Virus record (IMG/VR): IMGVR_UViG_3300011113_000736
Span: 1 to 64,000 of that record
Direction: 5' to 3' (one strand)
DNA from: a virus
Length of the DNA stretch: 64,000 nucleotides
Shown: piece by piece, positions 9,759 to 61,622 of the stretch
Layout of the letters: the number at the start of each line of letters is the position of its first letter
Numbering within the stretch: position 1 is the first letter of the stretch
Made by a program: the position numbers and the translations under genes
The notes under the pieces: model-generated
The model's input: only the letters and a program-made list of their open reading frames with translations
Database searches by the model: none
What the model was told of the DNA's origin: nothing

Positions 9759-11531
9759 TCAACCCCTTTCGCCACCCTTAAGTAGCTTAAAGCTGTTAGC
9801 CAAAGTCATGCCATTAGCAGGAATGTAAGGATTCTTGAGCTTGTCCCAAGTATCGGGACCGTCATCATGACCAAGCACATCGCTATCGGATTCGATAGCC
9901 TTCTCGCCATGAATCTTGAAATCGCCAGCCTTGGGCACATATGGATTCTTGACATTGGGATAGACATCGTTGCCATCCTGAGTCAAATAGCCCTGCTTAA
10001 GATCTTCAACGCCTTGCTTGTCATAAGACTTGCCATCGCTGACGAAAGGTGAACGGGTAGAAGCGTACTTGCCGGGAGTGCCGTCAATTTTGGCATACTT
10101 AGCAATTGCTTCGACATCTCCAGTCACAGTGTGACCAACTTTGTCAGAAACATGCCAGTCGCCACTCATTGGAAGATTGGCAGCAGCCTTGAGCATTGCG
10201 GCAGCTTCTTCAAGAACATCAAGATCAAAAGCCTTCTTGCCAGTTAGAGCGTTCTCAATGTCGCCCATAAAGCCAGCAATTTCATGCTTGATTGAGGTAT
10301 CACCGAAGTGTTCGGCAAGACCAGCAAGGCTGTTAAGAGCCTTGTAGGTGTCTTCAAAAGCCATCTTTTCGGTGTTGGCAACTTCGTCAAGCTTTTCAAT
10401 CATGACTTCAGAAGCTCTCTTGAATCCTTCATAGCTGTCGGATTCAAACATATCAGCTAGCTTGAATATCTGGTTGACCTTGTCCTTGTAGTTCTCGTAG
10501 CAAGTACGAAGAACGCCTTCAGCCAAGAAAGAGCAAGAATCGTCATCGAAATTCTTAACGCCTTCCTTAACCAAGGTGTCGCTGATCAACTTGGCAATTT
10601 CGCCTTCGGTGAGATAAATCACGCTGGGGAAAGCAGCGACGACATTCTCAATGGTTTCCTGTAGCTTAGAAGCATCGCTCATGGCGTTGCACTTCTTCAT
10701 ATCCTTGCAAGCAAGACCCCAGTGGGCATTGTGTGCAAGCATCTTCATGAGATCTCTTTGGTGCATAACATTGGTATTAAGAGTCTTCCAATTGAAGGAA
10801 AGCATCTTGGCTTCGTTCTTAATTTGAGAACGAGGAATAGCAATGGCAACAACATTGCCAAGCTTGTCCTTAACGGTTTCGCTCAAGGTTGGAGCGCCGA
10901 ATGTTCTGAAATCAACATAATCAAGAACATTCTTAGAAACTGATGCCCATTCCTTAACCATCTTGGCGGTAGCCTTCTTGGAAAGGTTCATCATCTTCTT
11001 GGAAGAATGCTTTTTCATTAGCTCTTCACGCTTGTCATCTTTCTTGCCATGAGATTTCTTAGCAGCTTTCTTCTTGAAGTAAGCGAGAAGCTGGGGAGGC
11101 ATTTTGCCCTTGCCGTGCTTCTTGGCTTCGTTGATAACACCTTCCTGAAGGTTTACACGAATGTAAGGAAGGCTGAAGTAGCTTGAGAAAAGATCGCTTG
11201 CTGCGTTCTTATTGTCATCAAGAATTGAATCAACCATTTTGTCAAGAATAGATTTACCTTCATTGATTTGAGAGGTTTCATCGACAACCAACTCTTCAAT
11301 GTTTTCAAGCAAAAGCTTGGTATCATCTACAATATAGGTAGCGTGAACAAGTGTTCCTTGATCAGTAGCAAAAGTAGCTTCATTTTCTGTGATGCCGAAA
11401 AGAGCCATGTTATCTTTGCCAAGTGCAGCAGCAATAGCATCGGTGGCTTCACTTAATTCTTTTTCGGCGGTCTGGAGAAACTTACGCTCAATCTGCTTGA
11501 AGACATCATAGTCGATGAGTTTTCTCTTCAT
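9759..11531 (-). CDS. Head-module virion protein of unknown role
   Basis: A 590-residue protein between the portal side and the protease gene, with GGGAG before its ATG and the same raised GC content as the capsid genes. It is Lys-, Ala- and Asp-rich, with a very basic stretch around residues 140-200 (AKKHGKGKMP, KKKAAKKSHGKKDDKREE) that could bind DNA, and a C-terminal tail with repeats of the form 'KNPYVPKAGDF' and 'KNPYIPANGM'. Several L/IxE sites could be cut by gp21. A prohead core or internal protein is inferred; no family is recognised. Confidence 0.6.
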   Translation of the reverse strand: MKRKLIDYDVFKQIERKFLQTAEKELSEATDAIAAALGKDNMALFGITENEATFATDQGTLVHATYIVDDTKLLLENIEELVVDETSQINEGKSILDKMVDSILDDNKNAASDLFSSYFSLPYIRVNLQEGVINEAKKHGKGKMPPQLLAYFKKKAAKKSHGKKDDKREELMKKHSSKKMMNLSKKATAKMVKEWASVSKNVLDYVDFRTFGAPTLSETVKDKLGNVVAIAIPRSQIKNEAKMLSFNWKTLNTNVMHQRDLMKMLAHNAHWGLACKDMKKCNAMSDASKLQETIENVVAAFPSVIYLTEGEIAKLISDTLVKEGVKNFDDDSCSFLAEGVLRTCYENYKDKVNQIFKLADMFESDSYEGFKRASEVMIEKLDEVANTEKMAFEDTYKALNSLAGLAEHFGDTSIKHEIAGFMGDIENALTGKKAFDLDVLEEAAAMLKAAANLPMSGDWHVSDKVGHTVTGDVEAIAKYAKIDGTPGKYASTRSPFVSDGKSYDKQGVEDLKQGYLTQDGNDVYPNVKNPYVPKAGDFKIHGEKAIESDSDVLGHDDGPDTWDKLKNPYIPANGMTLANSFKLLKGGERG

Positions 11532-11631
11532 TTTATACTCCCAAAAAAAACATGTTTAATTCACATAGAGTGAGAATTTTTAGAATCCTAACTCATATCT
11601 ATGCAGGAGCTTTAAAAAAAAGAAGGTAAAC

Positions 11632-11958
11632 ATGCAAACATTTGCTGATTTCATCAATAAAAGATTTGGTTTAAATGAAAATGAAGATCAAAATCAACAG
11701 GCTGTTCCTTTTAAAATGCGAAAAAAATCAGCTGAATTAGAAAATATAATTCATTTAATTTTAGATAATCCAAATTATTTTAATAAATTTTTTGAAGCTA
11801 TAAAAGAATTTGTTAAAGATATTCAAGATAATGATTTGAATAACATGATTGATGAATTAGAAGAAAATATAAAGCAAGATGATAAAGATAAAGGTCTTGG
11901 ACAATTAGATGGTGAGTCTCATAAACCAAATAATCTGCCACCTAATATGGGTGGTTAA
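11632..11958 (+). CDS. Small tagged protein, probable capsid cargo
   Basis: A 108-residue protein beginning MQTFADFINKRFGLNENED: Phe at 4 and 7, and a GLNE site that fits the (L/I)xE cleavage rule. The rest is acidic and helical, ending with KPNNLPPNMGG. The gene diverges from the head operon by 100 bp and has AGAAGG as ribosome site, unlike most tagged genes further right. The body has no recognised domain, so the cargo role rests on the N-terminal tag and location. Confidence 0.55.
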   Translation: MQTFADFINKRFGLNENEDQNQQAVPFKMRKKSAELENIIHLILDNPNYFNKFFEAIKEFVKDIQDNDLNNMIDELEENIKQDDKDKGLGQLDGESHKPNNLPPNMGG

Positions 11959-12516: not shown

Positions 12517-15045
12517 TCATTCAATGCTATAATCTTGGCTTTCCATGTCTTCTTCAGAGGCATAATCTTGAATACCAAGATCATACTTTTCGATATCTTC
12601 TTCTGAAGGTTCTGGAAGTGGTGGACCACCCCCTGTTGTTGTCGGTGTAGGACCACCAGTTTCTGAAGTTGCCGGTGCGCCACCCGCTGCTTCTGGTGAT
12701 CCCTCTGGTGGTGCTTCTGTTGGAACTTCGGGTGATTTGTTTGGTCCTTCTTCTGTAGCTCCAATTTGTTCTTCGTCGGATGCAGGTATGCCAACACCAA
12801 GAAGTTGTGGGTTCTGTTGCAACACTTGCAATCTTGCATCTTCAAGTTTTTGCAGTTTGTTTCTAGCAAGCATATCTTTTGTTTCTTCTTCAGTGTAATG
12901 CATCCAGAATCGCAACAAATCGTAATCGCTAATCAAACCAGCAGATTTAAGACCTGTTACATTTTGGATTCTGTTGTTGACGATTTCTGCTCTGCTAAGC
13001 TCTCTCCATTCGCTTGGAGGAGTCATTGTGATCTTTAAATCATCATAAGTCTCAGGTGGATAACCACGCATATGAAGATGTCTTTGAGCAATCTCATAAA
13101 TACCATCTTCCAATGAAGACTGATAACGCTCAACAGTTCTGGCAAACTTTACATCTTGTGAACTCAAGGTTATCTTGGTTTGAGCAGGATCATCGACATT
13201 AAGATAATTCTTGGGGAAGTTCAATGCTGTCATCAACTTCAAACGGAAGTAAATAGCATCGTCAATTTCGCCGAGATTTTGGGCACCGGGAAGTGTTTCA
13301 ATCTTTGTGTTAGAATTTGGTCTAGTTGGAATCCAATAATCTTCTTCGACGGCTGGTGGTTGATATCTTTCTTCCACGGAAGAAGATCCAGAGAATCCGT
13401 TTTGGTTCAAGCTGACCTTTCTCTTGCGGAATTGGTCTTTCATTCTTTCAATGAAAGCTTCAGCTTTGAAACCGGGAAGTTGACCAACATCAATATAAAA
13501 CACCCTTCTTTCGGGCGCACGGGCAAGGCGGTATGTCAACATGCTGTCTTCCATGAGTCTTAATTGATAAGCTGGTCCTCTGGCTGGTTCAACGATTGAA
13601 GAACCGTAAGGATAAAACTGCCTTCTATCCTCATTAACTCTTACATGAACAATTTGTTCAGGGGCGAATCTGATTGCTGTTGCCATTTGAATTTCTTGAT
13701 CGCTAGCAACAGTGACAGGCGCACGAACCAATGATTGATAATCTGGTCCTTCTTTGGACTGCTGGAATTCAATGACTTTGCCCTTGGTTGTTTCAATGCG
13801 ATAAATACTTTCGGGAGGAAGTCTTTGAATCTTCAAGATTCCCTCATTAGGAGAATCAAGATCGGTGATAAGCTCATAGAACAAATCACCATAAAGAAGC
13901 AAGCTCTTAAAATCTGCCCAAATTCTCTTATTGAAGTTCAACATTTGGCGTGACATAAGGAGGAATTCAACTTCCTTTTTCACATCATCGTTTTCTGTTT
14001 GAATTTTCAAAACATTGCCATATTCGTCCTTTTGACAATTGTGAACAATTGTATGGTCTGTGGCAAAGTTATGATGCTCTTCAACAGTCAAGTCATACAC
14101 ATCTTGTGTGATACCTTTAAATTTGCCAATTACTTTTCTTTTATCATTCTTGCTTCTGGACAAGTGTTTTAGTTCTTTGTATGTGTAACCAAATTTCTTC
14201 AATCTTGCTTTGATAGTGATCCAAGTTTCCTCAACCATAGCAAGTATATTTTCCATAGACAGACCTTTATTTATAAGTCTGGTATATTGGTTTATAACTT
14301 GATATTTCTCTATGGGTTTTCCAGCTTTCCATTCTTCGACAAGCTGTCTTTCAGTCACCCATCCATTATTAAATGTAAAGATTCTGGGGAATTGACCGCT
14401 AATTAGACTGTTGTGTTCTGAGTCTGGCTTTTCACGATAGAATGGCATTAAGTCATCGCCAATTTTAATCTTTTCGGCTTCTATCCATTCGCCTGAACGG
14501 AGCAAGATTTTATGATCTGGAGTACATTCCAACTTGCCACCATTATCAAAAATTAATTCTACAGTCTCTGATGTTTTGGTTTTTCTTGGATGATGTGCCC
14601 AACCAAGCGTGTAATCTCTCTTGCTAAAATCGTAGCAATAAACCAAGAATTTATCGTTAGCGTTTTCTTCAGCAAGTGTTTGAATTGTTTTAAATCCAAA
14701 TGGTGTTGCCACCTTTGTGTTGCCTGCAACGCAAGCTTCATCAGCAAAAATGGTCAAGCATGTTTCGATTTCTGGAACTGCCCTAAGTCTTTCGTATTCT
14801 TTATATCGTGAAATTCTGTTGCTTACAGTTGATAGGTCGATAAAATCTTGGCTCTCACGAAGGCGGATAAGTCTGTTATCTTGACCATTCCAATAAGAGC
14901 CATCGGGAGAAATGCTGGGGATAGAATCGGGACTGATGATACCAGCACCGACAATATCTTTAGATTGCAATCTTCTACTTAGCGGATCTTTTTCAAACGC
15001 ATAGGTAAAAGTTTTAAAAATATCAGACCAAAGTGGCGTAGGCAT
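12517..15045 (-). CDS. 20: Portal vertex protein, T4 gp20-like, interrupted by an intein
   Basis: The 842-residue precursor contains an intein at residues 105-336, leaving a 610-residue portal (T4 gp20 has 524). The extein has gp20-like features: an N-terminal clip and wing (YERLRAVPEIETCLTIFADEA, interrupted by the intein), YGDLFYELI, RLPPESIYRIE, then PYGSSIVEPARGPAYQLRLMEDSML and a later FPKNYLNVDDPAQTKITLSSQDVKFA. The C-terminal ~100 residues are Pro/Gly/Glu/Thr-rich and low complexity, an extension beyond the usual portal. GAGGA precedes the ATG. The protein forms the dodecameric DNA channel that binds the terminase. Confidence 0.92.
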   Translation of the reverse strand: MPTPLWSDIFKTFTYAFEKDPLSRRLQSKDIVGAGIISPDSIPSISPDGSYWNGQDNRLIRLRESQDFIDLSTVSNRISRYKEYERLRAVPEIETCLTIFADEACVAGNTKVATPFGFKTIQTLAEENANDKFLVYCYDFSKRDYTLGWAHHPRKTKTSETVELIFDNGGKLECTPDHKILLRSGEWIEAEKIKIGDDLMPFYREKPDSEHNSLISGQFPRIFTFNNGWVTERQLVEEWKAGKPIEKYQVINQYTRLINKGLSMENILAMVEETWITIKARLKKFGYTYKELKHLSRSKNDKRKVIGKFKGITQDVYDLTVEEHHNFATDHTIVHNCQKDEYGNVLKIQTENDDVKKEVEFLLMSRQMLNFNKRIWADFKSLLLYGDLFYELITDLDSPNEGILKIQRLPPESIYRIETTKGKVIEFQQSKEGPDYQSLVRAPVTVASDQEIQMATAIRFAPEQIVHVRVNEDRRQFYPYGSSIVEPARGPAYQLRLMEDSMLTYRLARAPERRVFYIDVGQLPGFKAEAFIERMKDQFRKRKVSLNQNGFSGSSSVEERYQPPAVEEDYWIPTRPNSNTKIETLPGAQNLGEIDDAIYFRLKLMTALNFPKNYLNVDDPAQTKITLSSQDVKFARTVERYQSSLEDGIYEIAQRHLHMRGYPPETYDDLKITMTPPSEWRELSRAEIVNNRIQNVTGLKSAGLISDYDLLRFWMHYTEEETKDMLARNKLQKLEDARLQVLQQNPQLLGVGIPASDEEQIGATEEGPNKSPEVPTEAPPEGSPEAAGGAPATSETGGPTPTTTGGGPPLPEPSEEDIEKYDLGIQDYASEEDMESQDYSIE
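12519..12554 (-). repeat. 36-bp portal 3' end, original copy
   Basis: This is the functional 3' end of the portal gene, repeated exactly at 11974-12009, 545 bp away in the same orientation. Confidence 0.85.
14038..14733 (-). other. Intein inside the portal protein (232 residues)
   Basis: The intein starts at Cys105 (CVAGNTKVATPFG, block A) and ends at His335-Asn336 before Cys337 (TIVHN, block G). Block B is LECTPDHKILL with the conserved Thr-x-x-His, and block F is VYDLTVEEHHNFAT. These are all the residues needed for standard Cys-type splicing. The region between (residues ~205-305) has no LAGLIDADG motif; it holds a helical segment with a possible helix-turn-helix (TERQLVEEWKAGKPIEKYQV). 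It is therefore either a mini-intein or carries a degenerate homing domain. It sits beside FADEA, a conserved portal segment, as inteins usually do. Confidence 0.9.
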
Positions 15046-45468: not shown

Positions 45469-46779
45469 ATGAATTTCAAACAATGGCTATTAACCGAAGC
45501 AATAATCAACAAAGAAGAATTTCTCAAAGAAATTGGTTCTACAGAAGATCCACATTTATATTTGCAATTATCACCAGATGGTAAAATATTGATGCCTGAT
45601 CAAGCATATAAAGATGTAATAACAATTGATAAAAAATATAAATCAATGATGCCAGTAGGGTCACTTCAACCATTATCTAAAAATTTTGCTAATGTAATTA
45701 ATACGATTAAAAAAATATACCCTGAAATATTAAACTATGCCGTTTCATCAGCAGGAGTATCAGGATTTAGATCTCCATCAAAAGAATACAGAACAGTGAA
45801 ATATTGGCTTGATCAACAAAGAACAGAACCAAAAGTAAATCTACCTAAATATTTCTATCACGGCACTTCAACTAATCTGTATAATATGTTCATCAAAGAA
45901 CAAGGATTAGTTCCAAGACAAATATCTGGAAGTTCTGGATCTTATGGTGCGTCATCAGTTAGAGCGATATCAAAAGGAATGTTTAATTACATTACAATCC
46001 ATCCTGACTATGCCACAAGAGAAGCAGCAACTCAAGCCGCAAGGAATCATGGCGGCTTGCCACTAATTATTAAGATTGATTCTACTGCAATAGATCCAAC
46101 AAAGCTTTATCCCGATGAAGATGCAGGAGCAGAAACTTGGGAAGAATCAATGCATAAGATAGGGACAGTTGCCTACAAAGGAATTATCCCAAGCTCAAGC
46201 ATTACGCCATATGAAATTAGCAAAGATACTTATAGGCTGAAATGGTTGCCGTATGAAGAAACACCAACAATGGATCACCCTAAATATGAAAATTTAATTA
46301 AAAGAAAAATACATGAAAGTAAAGACGCTATATTCTTTGCTCTTTATGACAAAGAAGTAATTGACAAAAAAGGCAATTTACTCAAACCAATAACTAGCGA
46401 AGAATTTAACGAAATAGTTAAAAATGCTAAATGGGCAACTAATGCGTGGCTAATTTACGAATCAATGGGAGAAGGCGCATTGGGACATACAAGAAACTAC
46501 GCCATTAGTAGAAGCAACTTTGATAAAGAAGCGCAGCAAATTATACTTGATTTGTATAATAACGGAATTCTAGATAATTATCTTGAAATGAAAAGCGAAT
46601 ACATTTATACACATGATGACAAAATACAAAATATAATAAAATATGCTAAAAGCCTTGGCAAAAAATCATGGAAAGAAATAGAACAAAAATTGAGAAGCGT
46701 CTATTTGAAAAACAACAGGGATCAAAACGATTTGTTATATTCGCCAGAAGCTAAAAAAATATTAGGGATTAAAGATTAA
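45469..46779 (+). CDS. Tagged protein with a KptA/ART-like domain
   Basis: A 436-residue protein starting MNFKQWLLTEAIINKEEF: Phe3, Trp6 and LTE (exact LxE site). The centre (residues ~125-235) has KYFYHGTSTNLYNMFIKEQG, GMFNYITIHPDYATREAA and SMHKIGTVAYKGIIPSSSI, which follow the H-Y-E order of KptA-type RNA 2'-phosphotransferases and H-Y-E ARTs (His in YHGTS, Tyr in NYITIHPDYA). The C-terminal ~170 residues are helical and unknown. AATAAATA ends 6 nt before the ATG with no ribosome site. The likely role is an injected NAD-using enzyme. Confidence 0.62.
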   Translation: MNFKQWLLTEAIINKEEFLKEIGSTEDPHLYLQLSPDGKILMPDQAYKDVITIDKKYKSMMPVGSLQPLSKNFANVINTIKKIYPEILNYAVSSAGVSGFRSPSKEYRTVKYWLDQQRTEPKVNLPKYFYHGTSTNLYNMFIKEQGLVPRQISGSSGSYGASSVRAISKGMFNYITIHPDYATREAATQAARNHGGLPLIIKIDSTAIDPTKLYPDEDAGAETWEESMHKIGTVAYKGIIPSSSITPYEISKDTYRLKWLPYEETPTMDHPKYENLIKRKIHESKDAIFFALYDKEVIDKKGNLLKPITSEEFNEIVKNAKWATNAWLIYESMGEGALGHTRNYAISRSNFDKEAQQIILDLYNNGILDNYLEMKSEYIYTHDDKIQNIIKYAKSLGKKSWKEIEQKLRSVYLKNNRDQNDLLYSPEAKKILGIKD

Positions 46780-47449: not shown

Positions 47450-49153
47450 ATGCGTTTCAAACAATGGCTATTACTTTCAGAGAAAATAGAGGTCAACGGA
47501 GTCCAATTCCGTGACAAATTGGATGCATTGAAACACATTTATAATAATCATCCTAATCCAGACAATTTAGTTGTCTCTTACACTTCAATTAACAAAATAG
47601 GTATAAATCCCAAAAGTCAATATAAAACACCACTTGGAATTTATTTCTATCCATTAAAATATGTTATTGATATGAATCTGGGAGTACCATTTGCTGGAGA
47701 TCAACCTTATCTTAATGTATGCGAAATTGTAAGACCAAATAAAATGTGGCACATGAAGTTAAAAACACAACCTCAAATTGGCTTAGATGTTTTGAAAAAA
47801 GCTTTTCCAAAAAAAGAAGTAGAAAATGCGATTGCTCAAATAAACACTAAAGGACTCGATATAAGAAGTAATTATTCAACTGTCTGGCTTGTAACACAAT
47901 TGATTTCTAATGAAAATCCAATATCATGGAATACTAATTTGAGAAAATTGGGCATAGATGGTTTTTTTGATCATGGCACAGGAACCATTCATACTGGTGA
48001 GCCAACACAAGGTGTTGTTTTCACTGCTAATGCTTTAAAAGTAATACATGTAATTGAAAATATTAAACAAGTATCAGATGAATCAAAATTCACAGAAGCA
48101 TTACAAAAAGGAAACATTGCTGCTGTTGATTATTTCATACAAAATAAAAATGTAAGCCTTGATTACGCAATTGAAATTGCAGCAGAAAATGGGCATCTTT
48201 CTTTAGTAAAACATTTAATTGAAAAATATGATGCTGGAATATATGATGCAGTTAACGATGCTGCTAAAAATGGACACTTTGATATTGTTAAATATCTCGT
48301 TGATGAACAAAAAGCAAATATAGATAGTTTTGCTGTAGTGGAAGCAGGATCAAAAGGATATCTCGATATAGTAAAATACCTTATTGAAAAGGGTGCAAAA
48401 ATAAACAAATATGCTGTGGAATCAGCAGCTAGTCAAAATCAATTTGATGTTGTTAAATATTTACTTGGCGAAGAAGTTACTCTAAATGGTCAAAAAATAA
48501 AATTACCAGCAAATGTAGAAATTGGAACAATAGGCGATTCAGCAATTAAAAATGCAGCTAGAAACGGAAATTTTGATATTGTTAAATACCTTGTTCAAAA
48601 AGGAGGTAAAATAATAGATTTAGATATAAAACACATGATTGAAAAAAATTATATTGATATCATAGTTTATTTTCTTAGCACTGGAAAATTATCATCATAT
48701 TATGTTGCCGAAGAAGCCGCCAAAAATGGAAGTTTGAATTTAATCAAAAACATTGTAAACATGGGATTTAAAATAGATGAAGAAGTATTTGTTAAAGCAG
48801 CCGATTTTGGAAACATCAAAATTGTAAAATATCTTTTGGAAGAATTAAAATTAAATGTTGGTATTGCTGATATCCAAAGATCTATTTTACATGCGGCTAA
48901 TCGTGGCGTTTTTAATACTGTTTTATATCTTGCAGAAAAATACCCCAAATTAGGAGCTTTGGCAATTACTGATGCTGCTAGACATGCAAGAATAGATGTC
49001 ATAAGACATATTATTGATAATTTAAAATCACCAACTAGCCAATTTCAGCTTAATGATGCAGCAGACAAAGCAAAAGAATATGGTAACAATGATATTGTTG
49101 ATTATCTTGTATCCAAAGGTGCAAAAAGACCAGTAGACAATGCCGCAAAATAA
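47450..49153 (+). CDS. Tagged effector-like protein: shared N domain plus ankyrin-type repeats (paralogue 1)
   Basis: A 567-residue protein. It starts MRFKQWLLLSEKIEVNG (Phe3, Trp6, LSE site). Residues ~12-203 form a domain shared with the next two genes (VVSYTSINKIGINPKS, TPLGIYFYPLKYV, NYSTVWL, GIDGFFDHGTGTIHTGEPTQ), possibly ART-like but unproven. From ~210 to the end are about ten ankyrin-type repeats in the style NGHFDIVKYLVDE, KGYLDIVKYLIEKGAK, like those abundant in giant viruses. CACTAAATA ends 4 nt before the ATG with no ribosome site. The repeats probably choose a host protein target. Confidence 0.62.
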   Translation: MRFKQWLLLSEKIEVNGVQFRDKLDALKHIYNNHPNPDNLVVSYTSINKIGINPKSQYKTPLGIYFYPLKYVIDMNLGVPFAGDQPYLNVCEIVRPNKMWHMKLKTQPQIGLDVLKKAFPKKEVENAIAQINTKGLDIRSNYSTVWLVTQLISNENPISWNTNLRKLGIDGFFDHGTGTIHTGEPTQGVVFTANALKVIHVIENIKQVSDESKFTEALQKGNIAAVDYFIQNKNVSLDYAIEIAAENGHLSLVKHLIEKYDAGIYDAVNDAAKNGHFDIVKYLVDEQKANIDSFAVVEAGSKGYLDIVKYLIEKGAKINKYAVESAASQNQFDVVKYLLGEEVTLNGQKIKLPANVEIGTIGDSAIKNAARNGNFDIVKYLVQKGGKIIDLDIKHMIEKNYIDIIVYFLSTGKLSSYYVAEEAAKNGSLNLIKNIVNMGFKIDEEVFVKAADFGNIKIVKYLLEELKLNVGIADIQRSILHAANRGVFNTVLYLAEKYPKLGALAITDAARHARIDVIRHIIDNLKSPTSQFQLNDAADKAKEYGNNDIVDYLVSKGAKRPVDNAAK

Positions 49154-49174
49154 AACAACTGCACTAAATAATTT

Positions 49175-51040
49175 ATGCATTTCAAACAATGGTTATTACT
49201 TTCAGAGAAAATAGAAGTCAACGGAGTCCAATTCCGTGACAAATTGGATGCATTGAAACACATTTATAATAATCATCCTAATCCAGACAATTTAGTTGTT
49301 TCTTACACATCAATTAACAAAATAGGCATAAATCCCAAAAGTCAATATGGCACACCACTTGGAATTTATTTCTATCCATTAAAATATGTTATTGATATGA
49401 ATCTGGGAGTACCATTTGCTGGAGATCAACCTTATCTTAATGTATGCGAAATTGTAAGACCAAATAAAATTTTGCATATGCAAAAATCAACTGAACCACA
49501 ACTTGGCATAGATTTGCTTAAGAAAACATTTTCAGAAACAGAAGTAGACAATGCAATTGCTCAAATAAACACTGTAAACACTGAAGGACTCGATATAAGA
49601 AGCAATTATTCAACTGTCTGGCTTGCAACTTACATTATTTCCAATGAAAATCCAATATTATGGAATACTAATTTAAGAAAATTAGGCATAGATGGTTTTT
49701 TTGATCATGACACAGGAACTATTCACACCAATGAACCAACTCAAGGTGTTGTTTTCACTGCTAATGCTCTAAAGGTAATAAATGTTATAGAAAATAAAAA
49801 AAATAAAGAAAATGAAGAAACATCTGAGCAAAGTGTTTTAAGTTTGCTTCAAAAAACAACAACAAAAAATGAAGGCAAATTGGTAAAATCTATTGTTACA
49901 AACAAAAAACAAACGCTAAGTGATCAAGATATTGTTGATATAATGGGACATGTGGAAAACAAAGACAAAATAGCAAAAATTATAATTCAAAATAAAACAG
50001 AACTTTCTGATGCTAATGTTTGGATTTTACTTCATCAATCAAATAACAAGAAAGAAATTGCAAATCTTTTAGGTTCTGAAAATATAAACAAACTTTCTAG
50101 TGATCATGTTGCTTCTTTGTTTCATCTAGACCAAAAACAAGAAATGGCAACTATTTTAGGCTCTGAAAATATAAACAAACTTAATGATCAAGATATTTAT
50201 GATTTGCTTAAATGTGGATATGACAAGCAAGAAATGGCAAAAATTTTAGGTAAAGAAAATATAAACAAACTTTCTAGTGGTAATGCTTCTAGTTTGCTTT
50301 ATTACGCATATGACAAGCTAGGAATGGCAAAAGCTTTAGGTAAAGAAAATATAAGTAAAATGGATGATAGTGTTATTATTAAATCTTTTGCTGATACAGC
50401 TAACAAGGAAGAAATGGCAAAAGCTTTAGGTAAAGAAAATATAAACAAATTCATCAGTGATAATTTTTCTGGTTTGCTTTATTATGCATCTGACAAGCAA
50501 AAAATAGCAAAAATCATAATTCAAAACAAAACAGAACTTTCTGGTGATAATGTTCGTTCTTTGCTTCTTTATGCAGATGACAAGCAAGAAATAGCAAATA
50601 TTTTAGGTTCAGAAAATATAAATAAAATCAACAATCATAATGTTTTTAGTTTGCTTAATAACGCATCTGACAAGCAAGAAATGGCAAAAATTTTAGGTTC
50701 TGAAAATATAAACAAACTTAATGATCAAGATATTTTTCTGATGCTTCATCGGGGTAACAATGACCCATCAGAAATGGCAAAAATTATAACTCAGTATAAA
50801 ACTGAACTTTCTGGCAAAGATATTTCTAACTTACTTCAAGTTACTCATGACCCGCAAGAGATGGCAAAAATTTTAGACAAAGAAAATATAAGTAAAATGA
50901 ATGATTATCATGTTTCCGAATTGATCAAATATAGGTCTAACAAACAAGAAATAGCAAAAATCATTGATCAATATCACGCCAATAAAACACCAGAAATTGA
51001 AAAACTAATTCAACCATTTTGCAACAAAACAACTAAATAA
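49175..51040 (+). CDS. Tagged effector-like protein: shared N domain plus novel 30-odd-residue repeats (paralogue 2)
   Basis: A 621-residue protein, starting MHFKQWLLLSEKIEVNG. The first ~200 residues are nearly identical in DNA to paralogue 1 for long stretches, so the copy is recent. From ~225 the repeats differ: about twelve units of 31-34 residues with a core like 'KQEMAKILGSENINKLND', 'DQDIYDLLKCGYD'. They are not ankyrin and no family is recognised. CACTAAATA ends 4 nt before the ATG. The tail IEKLIQPFCNKTTK closes 3 bp before the next gene. Confidence 0.58.
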   Translation: MHFKQWLLLSEKIEVNGVQFRDKLDALKHIYNNHPNPDNLVVSYTSINKIGINPKSQYGTPLGIYFYPLKYVIDMNLGVPFAGDQPYLNVCEIVRPNKILHMQKSTEPQLGIDLLKKTFSETEVDNAIAQINTVNTEGLDIRSNYSTVWLATYIISNENPILWNTNLRKLGIDGFFDHDTGTIHTNEPTQGVVFTANALKVINVIENKKNKENEETSEQSVLSLLQKTTTKNEGKLVKSIVTNKKQTLSDQDIVDIMGHVENKDKIAKIIIQNKTELSDANVWILLHQSNNKKEIANLLGSENINKLSSDHVASLFHLDQKQEMATILGSENINKLNDQDIYDLLKCGYDKQEMAKILGKENINKLSSGNASSLLYYAYDKLGMAKALGKENISKMDDSVIIKSFADTANKEEMAKALGKENINKFISDNFSGLLYYASDKQKIAKIIIQNKTELSGDNVRSLLLYADDKQEIANILGSENINKINNHNVFSLLNNASDKQEMAKILGSENINKLNDQDIFLMLHRGNNDPSEMAKIITQYKTELSGKDISNLLQVTHDPQEMAKILDKENISKMNDYHVSELIKYRSNKQEIAKIIDQYHANKTPEIEKLIQPFCNKTTK

Positions 51041-51043
51041 TTT

Positions 51044-53221
51044 ATGCGTTTCAAAGAATGGCTATTACTTTCAGAGAAAATAGAAGTCAACGGAGTCCAA
51101 TTCCGTGACAAATTAGATGCATTAAAATACATTTATAACAACCATCCCAGTCCAGAAAATTTAGTTGTTTCTTATACAGAAATAAACAAGATCGGCATTA
51201 ATCCAAAAAGTAAATGGGCAACACCAATTGGAATTTATTTCTATCCATTAAAATATGTCATTGATAGGGAACTAAATGTGCCATTTGCTGGAAATAAAGC
51301 TTATATCAATGTGTGTGAAATTGTAAGACCAAATAAAATTCTTCATATGCAAAAATCAACTGAACCACAACTTGGGATTGACTTGCTTAATAAAACATTC
51401 ACACATGACAAAATAGAACAAGTTATGGAGGAGATCGGCAAATCAGGTTCTGAATATAGAAGCAATTACTCAACTGTCTGGCTTGCAACACAATTGATTT
51501 CTAATAAAAATCCAATATCATGGAATACTAATTTGAGAAAATTAGGTATAGATGGTTTCTTTGATCATGGCACAGGAACTATTCACACTAACGAACCAAC
51601 TCAAGGTGTTGCTTTAACTGCTAACGCTCTAAAAGTAATACATGTCATAGAAAATGTAATGTCTCCAAAAGAAAAAGATATTGTGCCTTATGAAATTCAA
51701 CAAAATATTTTACAACATGTTAAAAACAACAACATAAACAATTTGTCGAAATTGCTTAAGAAATTCCCAATACCAGAAAATGCTGTGTATTACGCATCAG
51801 AATTAGGTAACCTTGATATGGTTAAATTTTTAGTTAATAAAAAAGCATATATAAGTGATGAAGCGGTTTATGCCGCAATAAAAATTAATAATTTGGAAAT
51901 AGTAAAATATTTAGTCGAAGAATTGCTGGCAAAAGGTCGAAAAATACCAATTGATTCTGTAGAACTTTCAAATGAATATGCTGAAAAAGATGTGCAAGAA
52001 TTCCTTGTATCAAAAGGTGCAAAAATAACTAGCTCAGCTGTAAAAGATGCTATCGATTCTAAAGAATTTAGTACCGTTAAATATTTCATAGATAACAATG
52101 CTGAAATTGATTATAAAATAATGGAGCATCTGTCTTCCCTTATAAAAAATAATCCTAACTCTGAAGAATATATTGATATTTTCAAATATATTGTAAAAAA
52201 CTCAAAAGATATTAGTATTAAACAAGATGCAATTGCTTATGCAATTCAATCTGAAAATGAAAATTTATTAAATAATATTCTCGAAGATGAAAAATTTGAA
52301 ATAAATAGTAACACAGTAATTGATTATAAAACAATGGAGCATTTGTCTTCCCTTATAAAAAATAATCCTAACTCTAAAGAATATATTGATATTTTCAAAT
52401 ATATTGTAAAAAACTCAAAAGATATTAGTATTAAACAAGATGCAATTGCTTATGCAATTCAATCTGAAAATGAAAATTTATTAAATAATATTCTAGAAGA
52501 TGAAAAATTTGAAATAAGTAGTAACACAGTTTATTACGCAATGAAACAAGGAAAATTTGATGTAGCCAAGTATCTTTTAAACAAAGTAGGAGACAAAGGT
52601 CAGTATGATGCATCTTTAAAGATAGCAGCAGCATCTGGCAACAAGGAAATGGTAGATATTCTTGTTGACAAATCTAATACTCCAGACGCTGCGATAGATG
52701 CAGCAGAAAATGGTCATTTTAATATTGCTAAATACATTGTAGATAAAAAAGGTATACCATCGTATGCCAGTTTGATTGCAATGGCTTTAAATTATGCCGA
52801 AAAAGAAAAAATAAAAGATTATAGTGATGTTTTCAATTTTATTAAACACCTTGTGGAAGAAAAGAAATATCCAATAAACCGTGGCAATGTAACATCAGCA
52901 ATTTTGACAGGAGAAGTCGATTTAGTTAAATACCTGCTTGATCATCTTGACAATAGTGTTAAAATAAATGAATCAGAAGCAACAAAGTATGCAATAATTT
53001 CAAAAAATATTGATATGATAAAATATCTCGTAGAAGATAAAAAATTCAAATTATCAGATGAGGCAATAGGATGGGCTGTAAATGGCGGCGATATTAACAT
53101 CATACGATACCTGATTAATAATGGTGCAAAAATATCAAAACAAGATGTTCAATATTACGCCAAAGAACTAGGCAAAGAACATTATATCGTAAAATTATTG
53201 GAGAAAAATATAAATCAATAA
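51044..53221 (+). CDS. Tagged effector-like protein: shared N domain plus ankyrin-type repeats (paralogue 3)
   Basis: A 725-residue protein, starting MRFKEWLLLSEKIEVNG. The shared N domain is more diverged than between paralogues 1 and 2 (for example PSPENLVVSYTEINKIG, KWATPIGIYFYPL). Ankyrin-type repeats (LGNLDMVKFLVNKKAY, INNLEIVKYLVEELLA, NGHFNIAKYIVDKKG, GGDINIIRYLINNGAK) run from ~225. A 71-residue block is duplicated in tandem in the middle. The TAAATA box overlaps the stop codon of the previous gene. The function is unknown; target binding by the repeats is likely. Confidence 0.6.
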   Translation: MRFKEWLLLSEKIEVNGVQFRDKLDALKYIYNNHPSPENLVVSYTEINKIGINPKSKWATPIGIYFYPLKYVIDRELNVPFAGNKAYINVCEIVRPNKILHMQKSTEPQLGIDLLNKTFTHDKIEQVMEEIGKSGSEYRSNYSTVWLATQLISNKNPISWNTNLRKLGIDGFFDHGTGTIHTNEPTQGVALTANALKVIHVIENVMSPKEKDIVPYEIQQNILQHVKNNNINNLSKLLKKFPIPENAVYYASELGNLDMVKFLVNKKAYISDEAVYAAIKINNLEIVKYLVEELLAKGRKIPIDSVELSNEYAEKDVQEFLVSKGAKITSSAVKDAIDSKEFSTVKYFIDNNAEIDYKIMEHLSSLIKNNPNSEEYIDIFKYIVKNSKDISIKQDAIAYAIQSENENLLNNILEDEKFEINSNTVIDYKTMEHLSSLIKNNPNSKEYIDIFKYIVKNSKDISIKQDAIAYAIQSENENLLNNILEDEKFEISSNTVYYAMKQGKFDVAKYLLNKVGDKGQYDASLKIAAASGNKEMVDILVDKSNTPDAAIDAAENGHFNIAKYIVDKKGIPSYASLIAMALNYAEKEKIKDYSDVFNFIKHLVEEKKYPINRGNVTSAILTGEVDLVKYLLDHLDNSVKINESEATKYAIISKNIDMIKYLVEDKKFKLSDEAIGWAVNGGDINIIRYLINNGAKISKQDVQYYAKELGKEHYIVKLLEKNINQ
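52106..52531 (+). repeat. Tandem 213-bp duplication inside the third paralogue
   Basis: Two in-frame copies, 52106-52318 and 52319-52531, encode nearly the same 71 residues (IDYKIMEHLSSLIKNNPNSE versus IDYKTMEHLSSLIKNNPNSK, and so on). Differences are only a few bases, so the duplication is recent. Confidence 0.9.
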
Positions 53222-58633: not shown

Positions 58634-58771
58634 TTACTCAAAAGCTATCTTGAAGGTGGCTGAAACCGTTGGTCGATTGTCGGACAAAGTAGCTCCGAGT
58701 TCTAGAGAGCTGTTGCGATAGTGGGCGCAACCGCTGGACAAGAGAACGACAGCTAATAGCATCCTTGCCAT
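58634..58771 (-). CDS. Small lipoprotein-like protein (45 residues)
   Basis: A 45-residue frame, MARMLLAVVLLSSGCAHYRN then a polar part ending ATFKIAFE. The N-terminus is a signal-like helix with a Cys (LSSGC) in lipobox position, although Ser at -3 is not ideal. AAGGAG overlaps the stop of the preceding 33-residue gene, 9 nt before this ATG, so the two are coupled. A membrane protein followed by a tiny lipoprotein recalls lysis or spanin units, but this is a guess. Confidence 0.55.
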   Translation of the reverse strand: MARMLLAVVLLSSGCAHYRNSSLELGATLSDNRPTVSATFKIAFE

Positions 58772-58777
58772 GTCCGG

Positions 58778-58879
58778 TTACTCCTTGATGTTGTCGCCGG
58801 TTCTAGCGATGTCTCTGATAGCAAATAGGATTGAGAAGAAGAAAGTGAACCAAATGAATGGGTTGGTGAAGCGTTCCAT
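58778..58879 (-). CDS. Small membrane protein (33 residues)
   Basis: A 33-residue frame, MERFTNPFIWFTFFFSILFA then IRDIARTGDNIKE: one aromatic membrane helix and a charged tail. GGGAG lies 9 nt before the ATG. A small hairpin (GTGCC/GGCAC, 58895-58910) lies in the leader and CGATAAATA just upstream may be a late-type box. It is coupled with the lipoprotein. Confidence 0.55.
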   Translation of the reverse strand: MERFTNPFIWFTFFFSILFAIRDIARTGDNIKE

Positions 58880-58965: not shown

Positions 58966-59031
58966 GACGACAAAGTAGTCCACAAGATTGGTGGCAATTG
59001 GTTTCCAGTCAAGACGACAGAGTAGTCCACA
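58966..59031 (+). repeat. Two diverged ParB-type sites
   Basis: GACGACAAAGTAGTCCACA (58966-58984) and GACGACAGAGTAGTCCACA (59013-59031) match the site family at 59846-60116 with one or two changes and are 47 bp apart. They lie between the small membrane unit and the next terminator. Confidence 0.7.
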
Positions 59032-59068
59032 AGAGTAGTCTGCGACTAACTTTGTCTACAATGGGTGC

Positions 59069-59102
59069 AAAAGGTCGCCCCGCTGGAGCTAACCAGCGGG
59101 GC
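59069..59102 (-). terminator. Intrinsic terminator after the 194-residue gene
   Basis: GCCCCGCTGG and CCAGCGGGGC arms (59077-59086, 59093-59102), with TTTT on the minus strand after the stem. Confidence 0.75.
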
Positions 59103-59125
59103 AGGTGGATTAAAGAGTAAACCCG

Positions 59126-59710
59126 TCAGGCTTTCTCAATAACTGCTTTCTTGACCACATTAGCCGAAACCCCGTTGTAGGGTTTCGATTGTCTACAAAC
59201 CGTAGGGGTTTCATCGGTGCCCTCAAGGATACCGGACAACAGGTATTCTGCACCTGTTTCAATCCCTGAAGTAGCACGGTCATCCATGTAGACGACGAAC
59301 GGGGTGCCATTGCTATGCACCAGATTGACAATCCGTTGGGGTTTCCTGAAGCGATTCCAGAAAACCGGAGAAATCCCGGTGCAAATAACCGGGACATTTT
59401 CGATGGCACCGGTTGACAAAGGATTGTTCACCGGGGTGGGCAGGGCGATGGCGGGCTTGCTGGCAACGCTTTCAGCAACGGGGCGGACAACGATGGCACC
59501 GCCGTCGCCCTTGGGTTTCTTGGGAGAAACCGGAGTTGGCGGGGCGGTTTTCTCTCCCAAGTCTCCAATCTTGATTGACGCCAACAATCGTGCTAGTTGG
59601 GCTGAATCCAGCCCTTGAAGGGCTTGAAGAATGACGGCGGTTTGATCCGCCTGAACCTTGCCCGAAACCGTCTTGGAAACCTTGCCAGAAACCTTGATGT
59701 TCTTCGCCAT
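59126..59710 (-). CDS. Unknown protein with a Pro/Lys-rich linker
   Basis: A 194-residue protein starting MAKNIKVSGKVSKTVSGKV, with GAGGGT upstream. A Leu-rich helical part (TAVILQALQGLDSAQLARLL) is followed by a Pro/Lys linker (TAPPTPVSPKKPKGDGG) and a C-terminal beta-rich domain (VNLVHSNGTPFVVYMDD). The codons are GC-richer than in the T4-like part. It has its own sigma-70 promoter and terminator. The SPKKPKG-type linker also occurs in ParB next door (PPTPASGERK), hinting at a common origin. The function is unknown. Confidence 0.55.
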   Translation of the reverse strand: MAKNIKVSGKVSKTVSGKVQADQTAVILQALQGLDSAQLARLLASIKIGDLGEKTAPPTPVSPKKPKGDGGAIVVRPVAESVASKPAIALPTPVNNPLSTGAIENVPVICTGISPVFWNRFRKPQRIVNLVHSNGTPFVVYMDDRATSGIETGAEYLLSGILEGTDETPTVCRQSKPYNGVSANVVKKAVIEKA

Positions 59711-59783
59711 GATCGAAACCCTCATCAACCCCAATCCCCGGCGGGGCACCCGGTTGGGCGGAAACCATATCCACCCATTGAGA

Positions 59784-59812
59784 ATTGTACGGGAAGATGC
59801 AACAGATTGCAA
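59784..59812 (-). promoter_or_regulatory. Sigma-70 promoter of the 194-residue gene
   Basis: TTGCAA (59807-59812), a 17-bp spacer and TACAAT (59784-59789) on the minus strand. The ParB-type site array begins 34 bp upstream. Confidence 0.75.
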
Positions 59813-59845
59813 GCCCAACCAGACACAATTTCCTTGATTCCCTGA

Positions 59846-60116
59846 GACGACATAGTAGTCTACACGATTAGTGGGTAAATGGTTTCCCATTAAGACGACA
59901 TAGTAGTCTACATGATTGGTAGGTAAATGGTTTGCTGATAAGACGACATAGTAGTCTACACAATTAGTGGGTAAATGGTTTGCTGATAAGACGACATAGT
60001 AGTCTACAGTAGAGATCGCTTAAATTAACTACTATGTCGTCTAAGGGGGATTTAGAAAAGTATTAGGAAAGGCTAATGCAAAACCCAGGTCGCCCCGAAC
60101 GACATAGTAGTCTACA
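59846..60116. repeat. Array of ParB-type/iteron sites with 48-bp period
   Basis: GACGACATAGTAGTCTACA occurs at 59846, 59894, 59942 and 59990, exactly 48 bp apart, with a conserved filler (ATT.GT.GGTAAATGGTTT). An inverted copy lies at 60028-60041 and another direct copy at 60098-60116. The core is an imperfect palindrome, GAC-x-AC-xxx-GT-x-GTC, as expected for a dimeric binding protein. The array lies between the ParB gene and the 194-residue gene and is the obvious candidate for a centromere (parS), operator or origin. Confidence 0.88.
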
Positions 60117-60175
60117 AAAAAGGTAGATAGTGTTTAAGACACCGCGGATTTAGTTTGTATTAAATATAAAGAAAA

Positions 60176-60211
60176 TAAAAAAACCCCCCGGAGTGGAATA
60201 CTCCGGGGGGT
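60176..60211 (-). terminator. Intrinsic terminator after parB
   Basis: A 12-bp stem, ACCCCCCGGAGT and ACTCCGGGGGGT (60183-60194, 60200-60211), with a T-rich run on the minus strand after it. Confidence 0.88.
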
Positions 60212-60230
60212 CTGAGAGTTTGTTAGTATG

Positions 60231-61265
60231 TTACTTGGTAGACTTCTTGTCTTCCAAGTGTTGGCAGAGGGTGACAATCACCGCCCGATTGTCGCTTGAC
60301 CGTTCGTCGATCCACTTGGAAAGTGCCCTCAAGAGAGGCACAACGGGGTAATTTACCAGATCTTTGCACAATGAGTTTAGCAAAAGTTGGATAGCTTCCG
60401 GGGAGGCTTTGTCCGACTTGCGTTCGCCGGATGCCGGAGTTGGCGGGGCGGGAATGTCCGTGGACTTCTTGTGTCCACTTTCTCCCTTTTCTCCCTTACC
60501 TTCCGATCCCGGCAGGGGACCGGACAAAGCGGCTTTAGGATCAACCTTTGTCGCCTTTACGGCTTTGGGATCGGCAACCCCGGAACCGGGTTGTTGAGCG
60601 ACTTTAGATACAACTGCGGTATTGATTTTAGACTTTTCCGCTTTGGTCTTAGAATTTCCCATGTCCTTTACCGCTTGTGTAGCCTGAGCTACCAGAGCCA
60701 TCGCTTCCGGCGTTGCGTTCTTCAACGCTATGGCAGCCTTGAAGGTAAACTCTCCGGCATGGATGGATTCTTGAACTTCCTTGGGGAGTTTAAGGAGTCC
60801 CAAGGTCTTTGACACATCCGCCCCATATGTCTTGAATACGGAAGCGACCCTTGTTTGTGTCCAATTAAACTCTTCCATCGCCCTCTTCATGGCGATGGCA
60901 CGGTCGATGAACGACGGTTCTTCCCGTTGTTCGTTCTCAATCACTTGCAAAAGGAACATTTGCTCCTTATCGAGTCCGGTATGAACCATAGCGGGAATCT
61001 TCTTGATCCCAGCCTTTTGCGCTGCCACAGATCGCCTATGTCCGGCGATCACCTTGTGCTTTCCATCAGGGAGTTTAGCGACAATGATTGGCGTTTGAAC
61101 GCCATCACGCTTCAATTCGGCAGCGAATGCCTGAATTGAGACATCATCCATCCCAAATTTACGGTTGTTATCAAGATCCAAAACAAGAGAAGAAACATCC
61201 ACAAACTCGAAAGAAGCTTTAGCATTGTCCACATGAACCATAGCGTTCTTCTTTGAAGTCTTCAT
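60231..61265 (-). CDS. parB: ParB-like DNA-binding protein
   Basis: A 344-residue protein. The N-terminal ParB domain has LVLDLDNNRKFG, ELKRDGVQTPIIV, KVIAGHRRSVAAQKAG (Gly75-His-Arg-Arg, the CTP-binding 'GERRxxA' box with His for Glu) and VIENEQREEPSFIDRA. A helix-turn-helix follows (NWTQTRVASVFKTYGADVSK, residues ~134-153). The C-terminal third has a charged Pro-rich linker and a final helix pair that may dimerise. ParB proteins bind parS and spread as clamps to segregate DNA or regulate genes. No ParA is present in the window. Confidence 0.85.
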   Translation of the reverse strand: MKTSKKNAMVHVDNAKASFEFVDVSSLVLDLDNNRKFGMDDVSIQAFAAELKRDGVQTPIIVAKLPDGKHKVIAGHRRSVAAQKAGIKKIPAMVHTGLDKEQMFLLQVIENEQREEPSFIDRAIAMKRAMEEFNWTQTRVASVFKTYGADVSKTLGLLKLPKEVQESIHAGEFTFKAAIALKNATPEAMALVAQATQAVKDMGNSKTKAEKSKINTAVVSKVAQQPGSGVADPKAVKATKVDPKAALSGPLPGSEGKGEKGESGHKKSTDIPAPPTPASGERKSDKASPEAIQLLLNSLCKDLVNYPVVPLLRALSKWIDERSSDNRAVIVTLCQHLEDKKSTK

Positions 61266-61332
61266 AACAATCTACCTTTCTACTTTCCTAATCCCTTATC
61301 TTCGGCACCATGCTTCCGATTCGGGGATTAGC

Positions 61333-61350
61333 GTCACCACATCGGGTGAC
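61333..61350 (-). promoter_or_regulatory. Leader hairpin of parB
   Basis: GTCACC/GGTGAC arms fold into a hairpin right after the predicted transcript start; a second possible pairing (TAATCCC with GGGATTA) lies nearer the gene. They could stabilise or regulate the message. Confidence 0.5.
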
Positions 61351-61357
61351 TGCGACC

Positions 61358-61386
61358 ATTAAACCACAAACCGCCCGGCATGTCAA
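61358..61386 (-). promoter_or_regulatory. Sigma-70 promoter of parB (proximal)
   Basis: TTGACA (61381-61386), a 17-bp spacer and TTTAAT (61358-61363). Confidence 0.75.
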
Positions 61387-61504
61387 CCCCCGGTTTTTCA
61401 GGGAAAAACAAGGGTTTTTTTGCGTTTCGCTAACACAATTGGCACCGTCTTAGCGTTTCACAAAATCACCACCGGCATCAGTCGCAGATACAACCGACAC
61501 ACAT

Positions 61505-61533
61505 AGTATACGAAAAATCCCCGGAAAAGTCAA
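61505..61533 (-). promoter_or_regulatory. Second sigma-70 promoter upstream of parB
   Basis: TTGACT (61528-61533), a 17-bp spacer and TATACT (61505-61510). Between it and the proximal promoter there is no gene but an inverted repeat (CGCTAA/TTAGCG), so it may give a long leader or a small RNA. Confidence 0.65.
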
Positions 61534-61570
61534 GCATACTTTTTATCTCTAATTCCCACCCCCCACCTAA

Positions 61571-61622
61571 GACGACATAGTAGTTCCTTTTATCTACCGC
61601 TTTTCTCCACTACTATGTCATC
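61571..61622. repeat. Pair of inverted ParB-type sites upstream of the parB promoters
   Basis: GACGACATAGTAGT (61571-61584) and its inverted partner ACTACTATGTCATC (61609-61622) face each other, 38 bp before the distal promoter. This is consistent with autoregulation by ParB. Confidence 0.75.

Follow-up and report, generated by a model that had tools for sequence, protein, structure and literature searches.

The window, which is the whole stretch of DNA analysed here, comprises the first 64,000 bases of the 70,609-bp virus record IMGVR_UViG_3300011113_000736 and contains a parB gene (60231..61265, minus strand), which encodes a 344-aa protein with a ParB_N domain (CTPase fold), an HTH_ParB domain, a low-complexity linker and a short helical C-terminus. 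Two promoters are located upstream of parB on the same strand: P1 (61505..61533; TTGACT-N17-TATACT) and P2 (61358..61386; TTGACA-N17-TTTAAT). An intrinsic terminator located 3' of the gene (60181..60213, minus strand) parts parB from the control region of geneX (59126..59710, minus strand), which encodes a 194-aa protein with no family match and a structure prediction of pLDDT 34, and which shows a TTGCAA-N17-TACAAT promoter (59784..59812, minus strand). The same strand also contains a gene encoding a 33-aa predicted membrane peptide (MERFTNPFIWFTFFFSILFAIRDIARTGDNIKE, read from sequence; 58778..58879) and a gene encoding a 45-aa predicted lipoprotein with the lipobox LSSGC (58634..58771). The assignment of the record to a T4-type virus, made in an earlier sequence-only reading, is backed by portal, major head and sheath-type families and by a terminase. 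The major head protein of the record shares 78-97% identity with its counterparts in 80 viral contigs and, since some of these contigs have 223-533 kb, the record is probably a fragment of a far larger genome.

Sites around parB

Four exact copies of GACGACATAGTAGTC, assigned to the minus strand in the gene-direction reading GACTACTATGTCGTC, are found at 59846..59860, 59894..59908, 59942..59956 and 59990..60004, with a spacing of exactly 48 bp, and the first of them precedes the geneX -35 box by 33 bp. The inverted and single copies previously noted on both sides of parB are also present: one-mismatch copies start at 60027, 60098 and 61571 and a two-mismatch copy at 61608, those at 60027 and 61608 matching GACGACATAGTAGTC on the minus strand. 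In gene-direction reading, the fourth site of the array is also the forward arm of a divergent pair (pair A), whose reverse arm is at 60027..60041 (plus strand) with 24 bp between the ACTA cores, and the composite unit (59992..60039) is an exact match to CNACATNNTAGT-N24-ACTANNATGTNG. The copy at 60098..60112 (minus strand) stands alone between the terminator of parB and the array. Pair B has its forward arm at 61571..61585 (minus strand), 37 bp upstream of the -35 box of P1, and its reverse arm at 61608..61622 (plus strand); its composite unit (61573..61620) has one mismatch to the same composite, also with 24 bp between cores. The two diverged copies (59013..59027 and 58966..58980, minus strand) are 47 bp apart, upstream of the membrane peptide and lipoprotein genes, and each differs from GACGACATAGTAGTC in one position.

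A search of the whole 70,609-bp record found 10 matches with up to two mismatches, all within 58966-61622; these ten sites span 2.7 kb around parB and the rest of the 70.6-kb record shows none. Allowing three mismatches, the window contains 12 matches, against a mean of 0.55 and a maximum of 3 in shuffled sequences, and two of the 12 are isolated three-mismatch hits at 11499 and 56769. The exact GACGACATAGTAGTC is also found in the viral collection as 29 single copies, which were taken as chance.

The parB locus of contig G036

A direct scan of viral contigs with two peptide-pattern sets found no relatives of the window ParB, and a search for anchor genes among the MCP relatives was negative and uninformative. 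A related contig, G036 (33.9 kb; also L146), was reached via the DUF932 gene at 69097-70077, a neighbour of the parB locus, and it is largely colinear with positions 27-70 kb of the record. This contig shows a parB gene in the same place, with 39-40% identity over the aligned part, and conserves both parB promoters, P1 in sequence and position. It also has a geneX orthologue (10999-11490, 36% identity), likewise with sites upstream. The GC content of the window climbs from about 0.35 to 0.5 at 58.5 kb, which raised the question of a chimeric contig; this was rejected on the colinearity with G036 and, since parB lies at the matching place with a site family of its own in that contig, the locus is native to the lineage.

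G036 contains no copy of the window motif. It shows instead ACTAAAATGTGGATGG, with 19 copies within one mismatch, all between 7516 and 13558, and a weaker copy at 14085. In each of the two parB-bearing contigs, the sites are restricted to the surroundings of parB. Two properties that the sequence-only reading had attributed to the array stand only in part. The period of 48 bp is exact in the window and is not conserved, the spacings in G036 being 56, 57 and 67 bp. The single site is an imperfect palindrome (AGAC.AC...GT.GTCT, 6 of 8 pairs), and this symmetry is not kept in G036; symmetry is conserved at the level of the divergent pair, whose cores are 24 bp apart. The spacings of 47-48, 56-57 and 67 bp are near half-integer helical turns, in a set with too few independent spacings. 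A second tandem repeat, TTTCGTTATCGGCTAACACTATT-like, is found in G036 at 10515-10677 and 11560-11700, ahead of two genes and between terminators and ParB-type sites, and is possibly another control element or an origin.

A divergent unit shared by three lineages

In the gene direction, the site families of the window and G036 align without gaps (ACTACTATGTCGTC and ACTAAAATGTGGAT) and have ACTAnnATGTnG in common. Because the similarity of the two cores alone is borderline (9 matches, shuffle p = 0.06), the argument for a shared site is carried by the 24-bp gap and by a third lineage. Each of the two contigs contains two adjacent divergent pairs, and all four pairs show exactly 24 bp between the ACTA cores. 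The composite CNACATNNTAGT-N24-ACTANNATGTNG, written from the window and G036 phages, is also found as an exact match in L153 and L154, two contigs with about 98-99% identity along most of the length that they share. The L153 pair was first noticed on reading the contig for another purpose and the pattern was formally tested afterwards: within two mismatches, the composite is found in four of 46 related records (window, G036, L153 and L154) and in none of the other 42. In L153 the pair precedes a gene for a small lipoprotein, a homologue of the lipoprotein gene that follows a site in G036. A transposon, suggested by the inverted arms around parB, was rejected, as these arms are paired sites and a pair is also found upstream of another gene in L153.

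The comparison with these two related viral lineages strengthens the proposed link between ParB and the sites, and likewise the placement of sites ahead of sigma-70 promoters and the absence of ParA. It is rather unlikely that the sites are operators of another phage or host regulator, with parB as merely one of the regulated genes. This explanation fits the presence of sites upstream of parB itself, the protein-site link is one that we infer, and the asymmetric core, unusual in a ParB site and unlike parS or KorB operators, weighs against a ParB regulator. However, parB is the only gene of the shared block with a predicted DNA-binding domain. Moreover, the two contigs whose length would reveal both parB and sites do contain both (L153 and L154 are too short to show parB, so the joint occurrence refers to two contigs only), and neither parB nor sites were found in 35 relatives.

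ParB protein and partition functions

The window protein belongs to the ParB family: it matches PF02195 (ParB_N; 2.4e-13) and PF17762 (HTH_ParB; 1.5e-11) above the curated cut-offs, as the G036 protein also does for both domains. Caulobacter ParB matches the window protein by sequence (1e-20), and a Foldseek search with its model, confident in the N-terminal part only, matched ParB, Noc and KorB structures. The stretches corresponding to the CTP-binding motifs of the family (GERRxxA-like Box II and ENxxR Box III) are GHRRSVA and ENEQR in the window protein and GVRRTMA and ENLIR in that of G036; both proteins keep RR..A and EN..R, and the acidic residue of GERR is not kept. The matches to the window ParB in the genome collection are other ParB loci, one of them in a Clostridia contig.

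The sequence-only reading had offered a partition centromere, an operator or an origin as functions of the array, and had found no ParA gene in the window. This last point holds for the whole 70.6-kb record, where the ParA-type family PF13614 is absent in a search that detected it in 14 of 14 control genomes, and PF13614 is also absent from the 33.9-kb G036; both records are fragments, and a distant parA is possible. The ParA-binding motif (LG[KR]GL), defined as (L/F/I)G(K/R)G(L/F/I) (PMC12704722), is absent from both ParB proteins, which is not decisive because P1-type ParBs lack it too. The chromosomal parS consensus TGTTTCACGTGAAACA shows no match with up to three mismatches in the window or in the first 20 kb of G036, and sites of this type were found beside parB of the Clostridia contig used as control; this absence is not decisive either, because plasmid and phage parS sites differ from TGTTTCACGTGAAACA. 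A search for the ParM-type family PF06406 gave no match in the record or in any control genome.

A centromere, in which the arrays would be parS-like sites used by ParB to segregate or position the genome with a ParA encoded elsewhere or by the host, is accordingly quite unlikely. The domain content, the best matches to chromosomal ParB and Noc, and the clustering of sites around parB, as at the bona fide parB/parS locus of the Clostridia contig, agree with it. Against it are the missing ParA family, ParA-binding motif and parS consensus, and the orientation of the sites with transcription, each preceding single genes.

Site-linked promoters

What the DNA shows directly is the parB gene, the sites, sequences that resemble promoters and the conservation of this arrangement. 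The two sigma-70 promoters reported near the site clusters are present, with 37 bp (parB P1) and 33 bp (geneX) between the site and the -35 box. In the 7-14 kb block of G036, most genes show the same order: a terminator, one to three sites, a sigma-70-like promoter and the gene. There, sites precede single genes one by one, in about nine transcription units. The distances from the core to the -35 box are 36, 36, 45, 47, 47 and 73 bp in six G036 units, 56 bp at the first parB promoter of G036, and 47 and 51 bp in the window. G036 also contains misfits, a site 150 bp from its promoter and a lipoprotein gene without a clear promoter after its site, and the lipoprotein unit of the window likewise lacks a good promoter. 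In total, 25 of 29 sites are oriented with transcription, and reverse arms of divergent pairs account for the remaining four. Specific sites are thus found upstream of several promoters on one replicon, as expected of a KorB/VirB-like regulator.

This distribution bears on a role of the sites as origin iterons or as packaging or DNA-marking sites, serving to start replication, to package the DNA or to guide its modification. Repeats in tandem between genes would suit such a role, and one proposal has phage ParB-like proteins guiding modification enzymes while DNA is packaged (PMC6536676). However, the sites recur upstream of successive genes and not in one block, the terminase is about 34 kb from parB in the window, and no initiator gene was recognised next to the arrays, which makes this role very improbable.

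The site-free early genes beside the block show near-consensus promoters (TTGACA-N17-TATAAT or TACAAT), most of them with an extended -10, which resemble T4 early promoters (PMC2988021). At positions 62216-70510 of the record, almost every one of the small early-type genes has a near-consensus sigma-70 promoter of its own, with an extended -10. The median score of the best promoter is about 12.6 bits in the site-linked genes (n = 12) and about 15.7 bits in the site-free genes (n = 26; p = 1.7e-4), a gap that is suggestive of activation and no proof of it, since the promoter matrix is approximate, the two classes were defined after the data had been seen and related genes are not independent.

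The opposite sign of control would make the sites repressor operators from which ParB silences the gene block until late or until some condition, in the manner of KorB, a ParB-family CTPase that represses promoters from near and far sites (PMC11790492). Sites upstream of the promoter of parB itself would suit autorepression. The sites, however, are upstream of the -35 box and not over the promoter, the promoters that they accompany are the weaker ones when compared with the site-free promoters nearby, and no KorA-like partner was recognised; repression in this form is unlikely.

Candidate transcription control by ParB

Among the three functions offered for the array, transcription control is favoured over a centromere or an origin, because the sites run with transcription, precede single genes and go with the weaker promoter class, and because the ParA-binding motif is missing from ParB and neither a ParA gene nor a parS consensus was detected. 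Since this record probably covers only part of a larger genome, the two less favoured functions are retained as options. We give about an even chance to an orphan, ParA-less ParB acting as a KorB/VirB-like transcription regulator in this T4-type phage lineage. ParB would recognise ACTAnnATGTnG sites, whether single, tandem or in divergent pairs with 24 bp between cores, bind them and nucleate there a clamp on the DNA, presumably using CTP. The clamp would act on the sigma-70 promoter just downstream, provided that the site-linked promoters are active, and the genes under ParB control would be parB itself and a block of small early genes, each transcribed separately. As to the probable sign of this control, the weak promoters and the upstream placement of the sites favour activation or anti-silencing, by a modest preference, over KorB-like repression, which is the nearest alternative. 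A more specific proposal, that a T4-type lineage recruited a ParB-family CTP clamp as the activator of a second class of early promoters, in which the clamp is loaded at a divergent site of fixed 24-bp geometry ahead of weak sigma-70 promoters, is put forward only tentatively.

Comparison with known systems

ParB proteins are known mainly as DNA-segregation clamps, and a few of them (KorB and VirB) control plasmid genes. KorB operators are many and are found at several promoters of the same replicon, the promoter of the operon that encodes KorB among them. KorB of plasmid RK2 is a ParB_N and HTH protein, a type recognised in the window ParB by sequence and fold, and acts as a CTP-dependent sliding clamp that represses (PMC11790492). 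It differs in having a ParA partner, IncC, none being found for the window ParB, and in its palindromic operators, whereas the window core is asymmetric and the site-bearing promoters are weak, suggesting activation. VirB of the Shigella plasmid is, like the window ParB, an orphan member of the family with no ParA; this anti-silencer loads at sites that precede its target promoters, on which it acts from there (PMC10770331). VirB counteracts H-NS and acts at a distance, whereas the phage sites precede many promoters by tens of bp, and the phage ParB has no known link to H-NS.

Chromosomal ParB and Noc are the best sequence and structure matches and share the GxRRxxA and ENxxR motifs, but the window system lacks the parS consensus, the ParA-binding motif and ParA, and Noc sites are scattered over the chromosome whereas the phage sites are at promoters. 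MotA of T4 is, as expected here for ParB, a phage-encoded factor that defines a second class of sigma-70 promoters (PMC2988021). However, MotA is not a ParB protein and its box replaces the -35 element at -30, whereas here a -35 box is present and the site is mostly 36-73 bp upstream of it. Phages N15 and P1 carry ParB proteins with several sites, which in N15 are near promoters. Both have ParA and act in a plasmid prophage, unlike the present T4-type phage, where no ParA was found. Searches of open-licence papers found no description of a ParB-based regulon in a T4-type phage; ParB regulators are already known, and such a regulon in a T4-type phage would be the new part. If true, it would extend ParB-based gene control to phage gene timing, at a locus that comes with candidate target genes, and would provide a compact natural system of two diverged protein-site pairs for the study of site specificity and clamp-driven control.

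Neighbouring genes and other proteins

In the window, the order of the membrane peptide gene and then the lipoprotein gene (58634-58879) recalls that of spanin pairs. Small lipoproteins of a similar kind, again preceded by sites, are found in G036 (14134-14358) and L153 (9669-9499).

An N-terminus of the form M-x-x-F-x-x-(F/W/Y)-L followed by an acidic or amide residue is present in 15 proteins of the window and 11 of G036, about two being expected from shuffles. These proteins, otherwise of varied sequence, are encoded between 11632 and 58154 in the window and between 15922 and 27982 in G036, and start, for instance, with MTTFKQFLEN. We take this N-terminus to recall the T4 capsid-targeting signal of internal head proteins, and by analogy these proteins may be injected along with the DNA.

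A 436-aa protein encoded at 45469-46779 of the window is 79% identical in G036 and 73% identical in L153 and L154, and shows only a weak match to an unnamed PHROG; its YFYHGTS stretch suggests an ADP-ribosyltransferase. The region 47450-53221 contains three consecutive long ORFs whose first 24 residues are nearly alike, and which are apparently paralogues.
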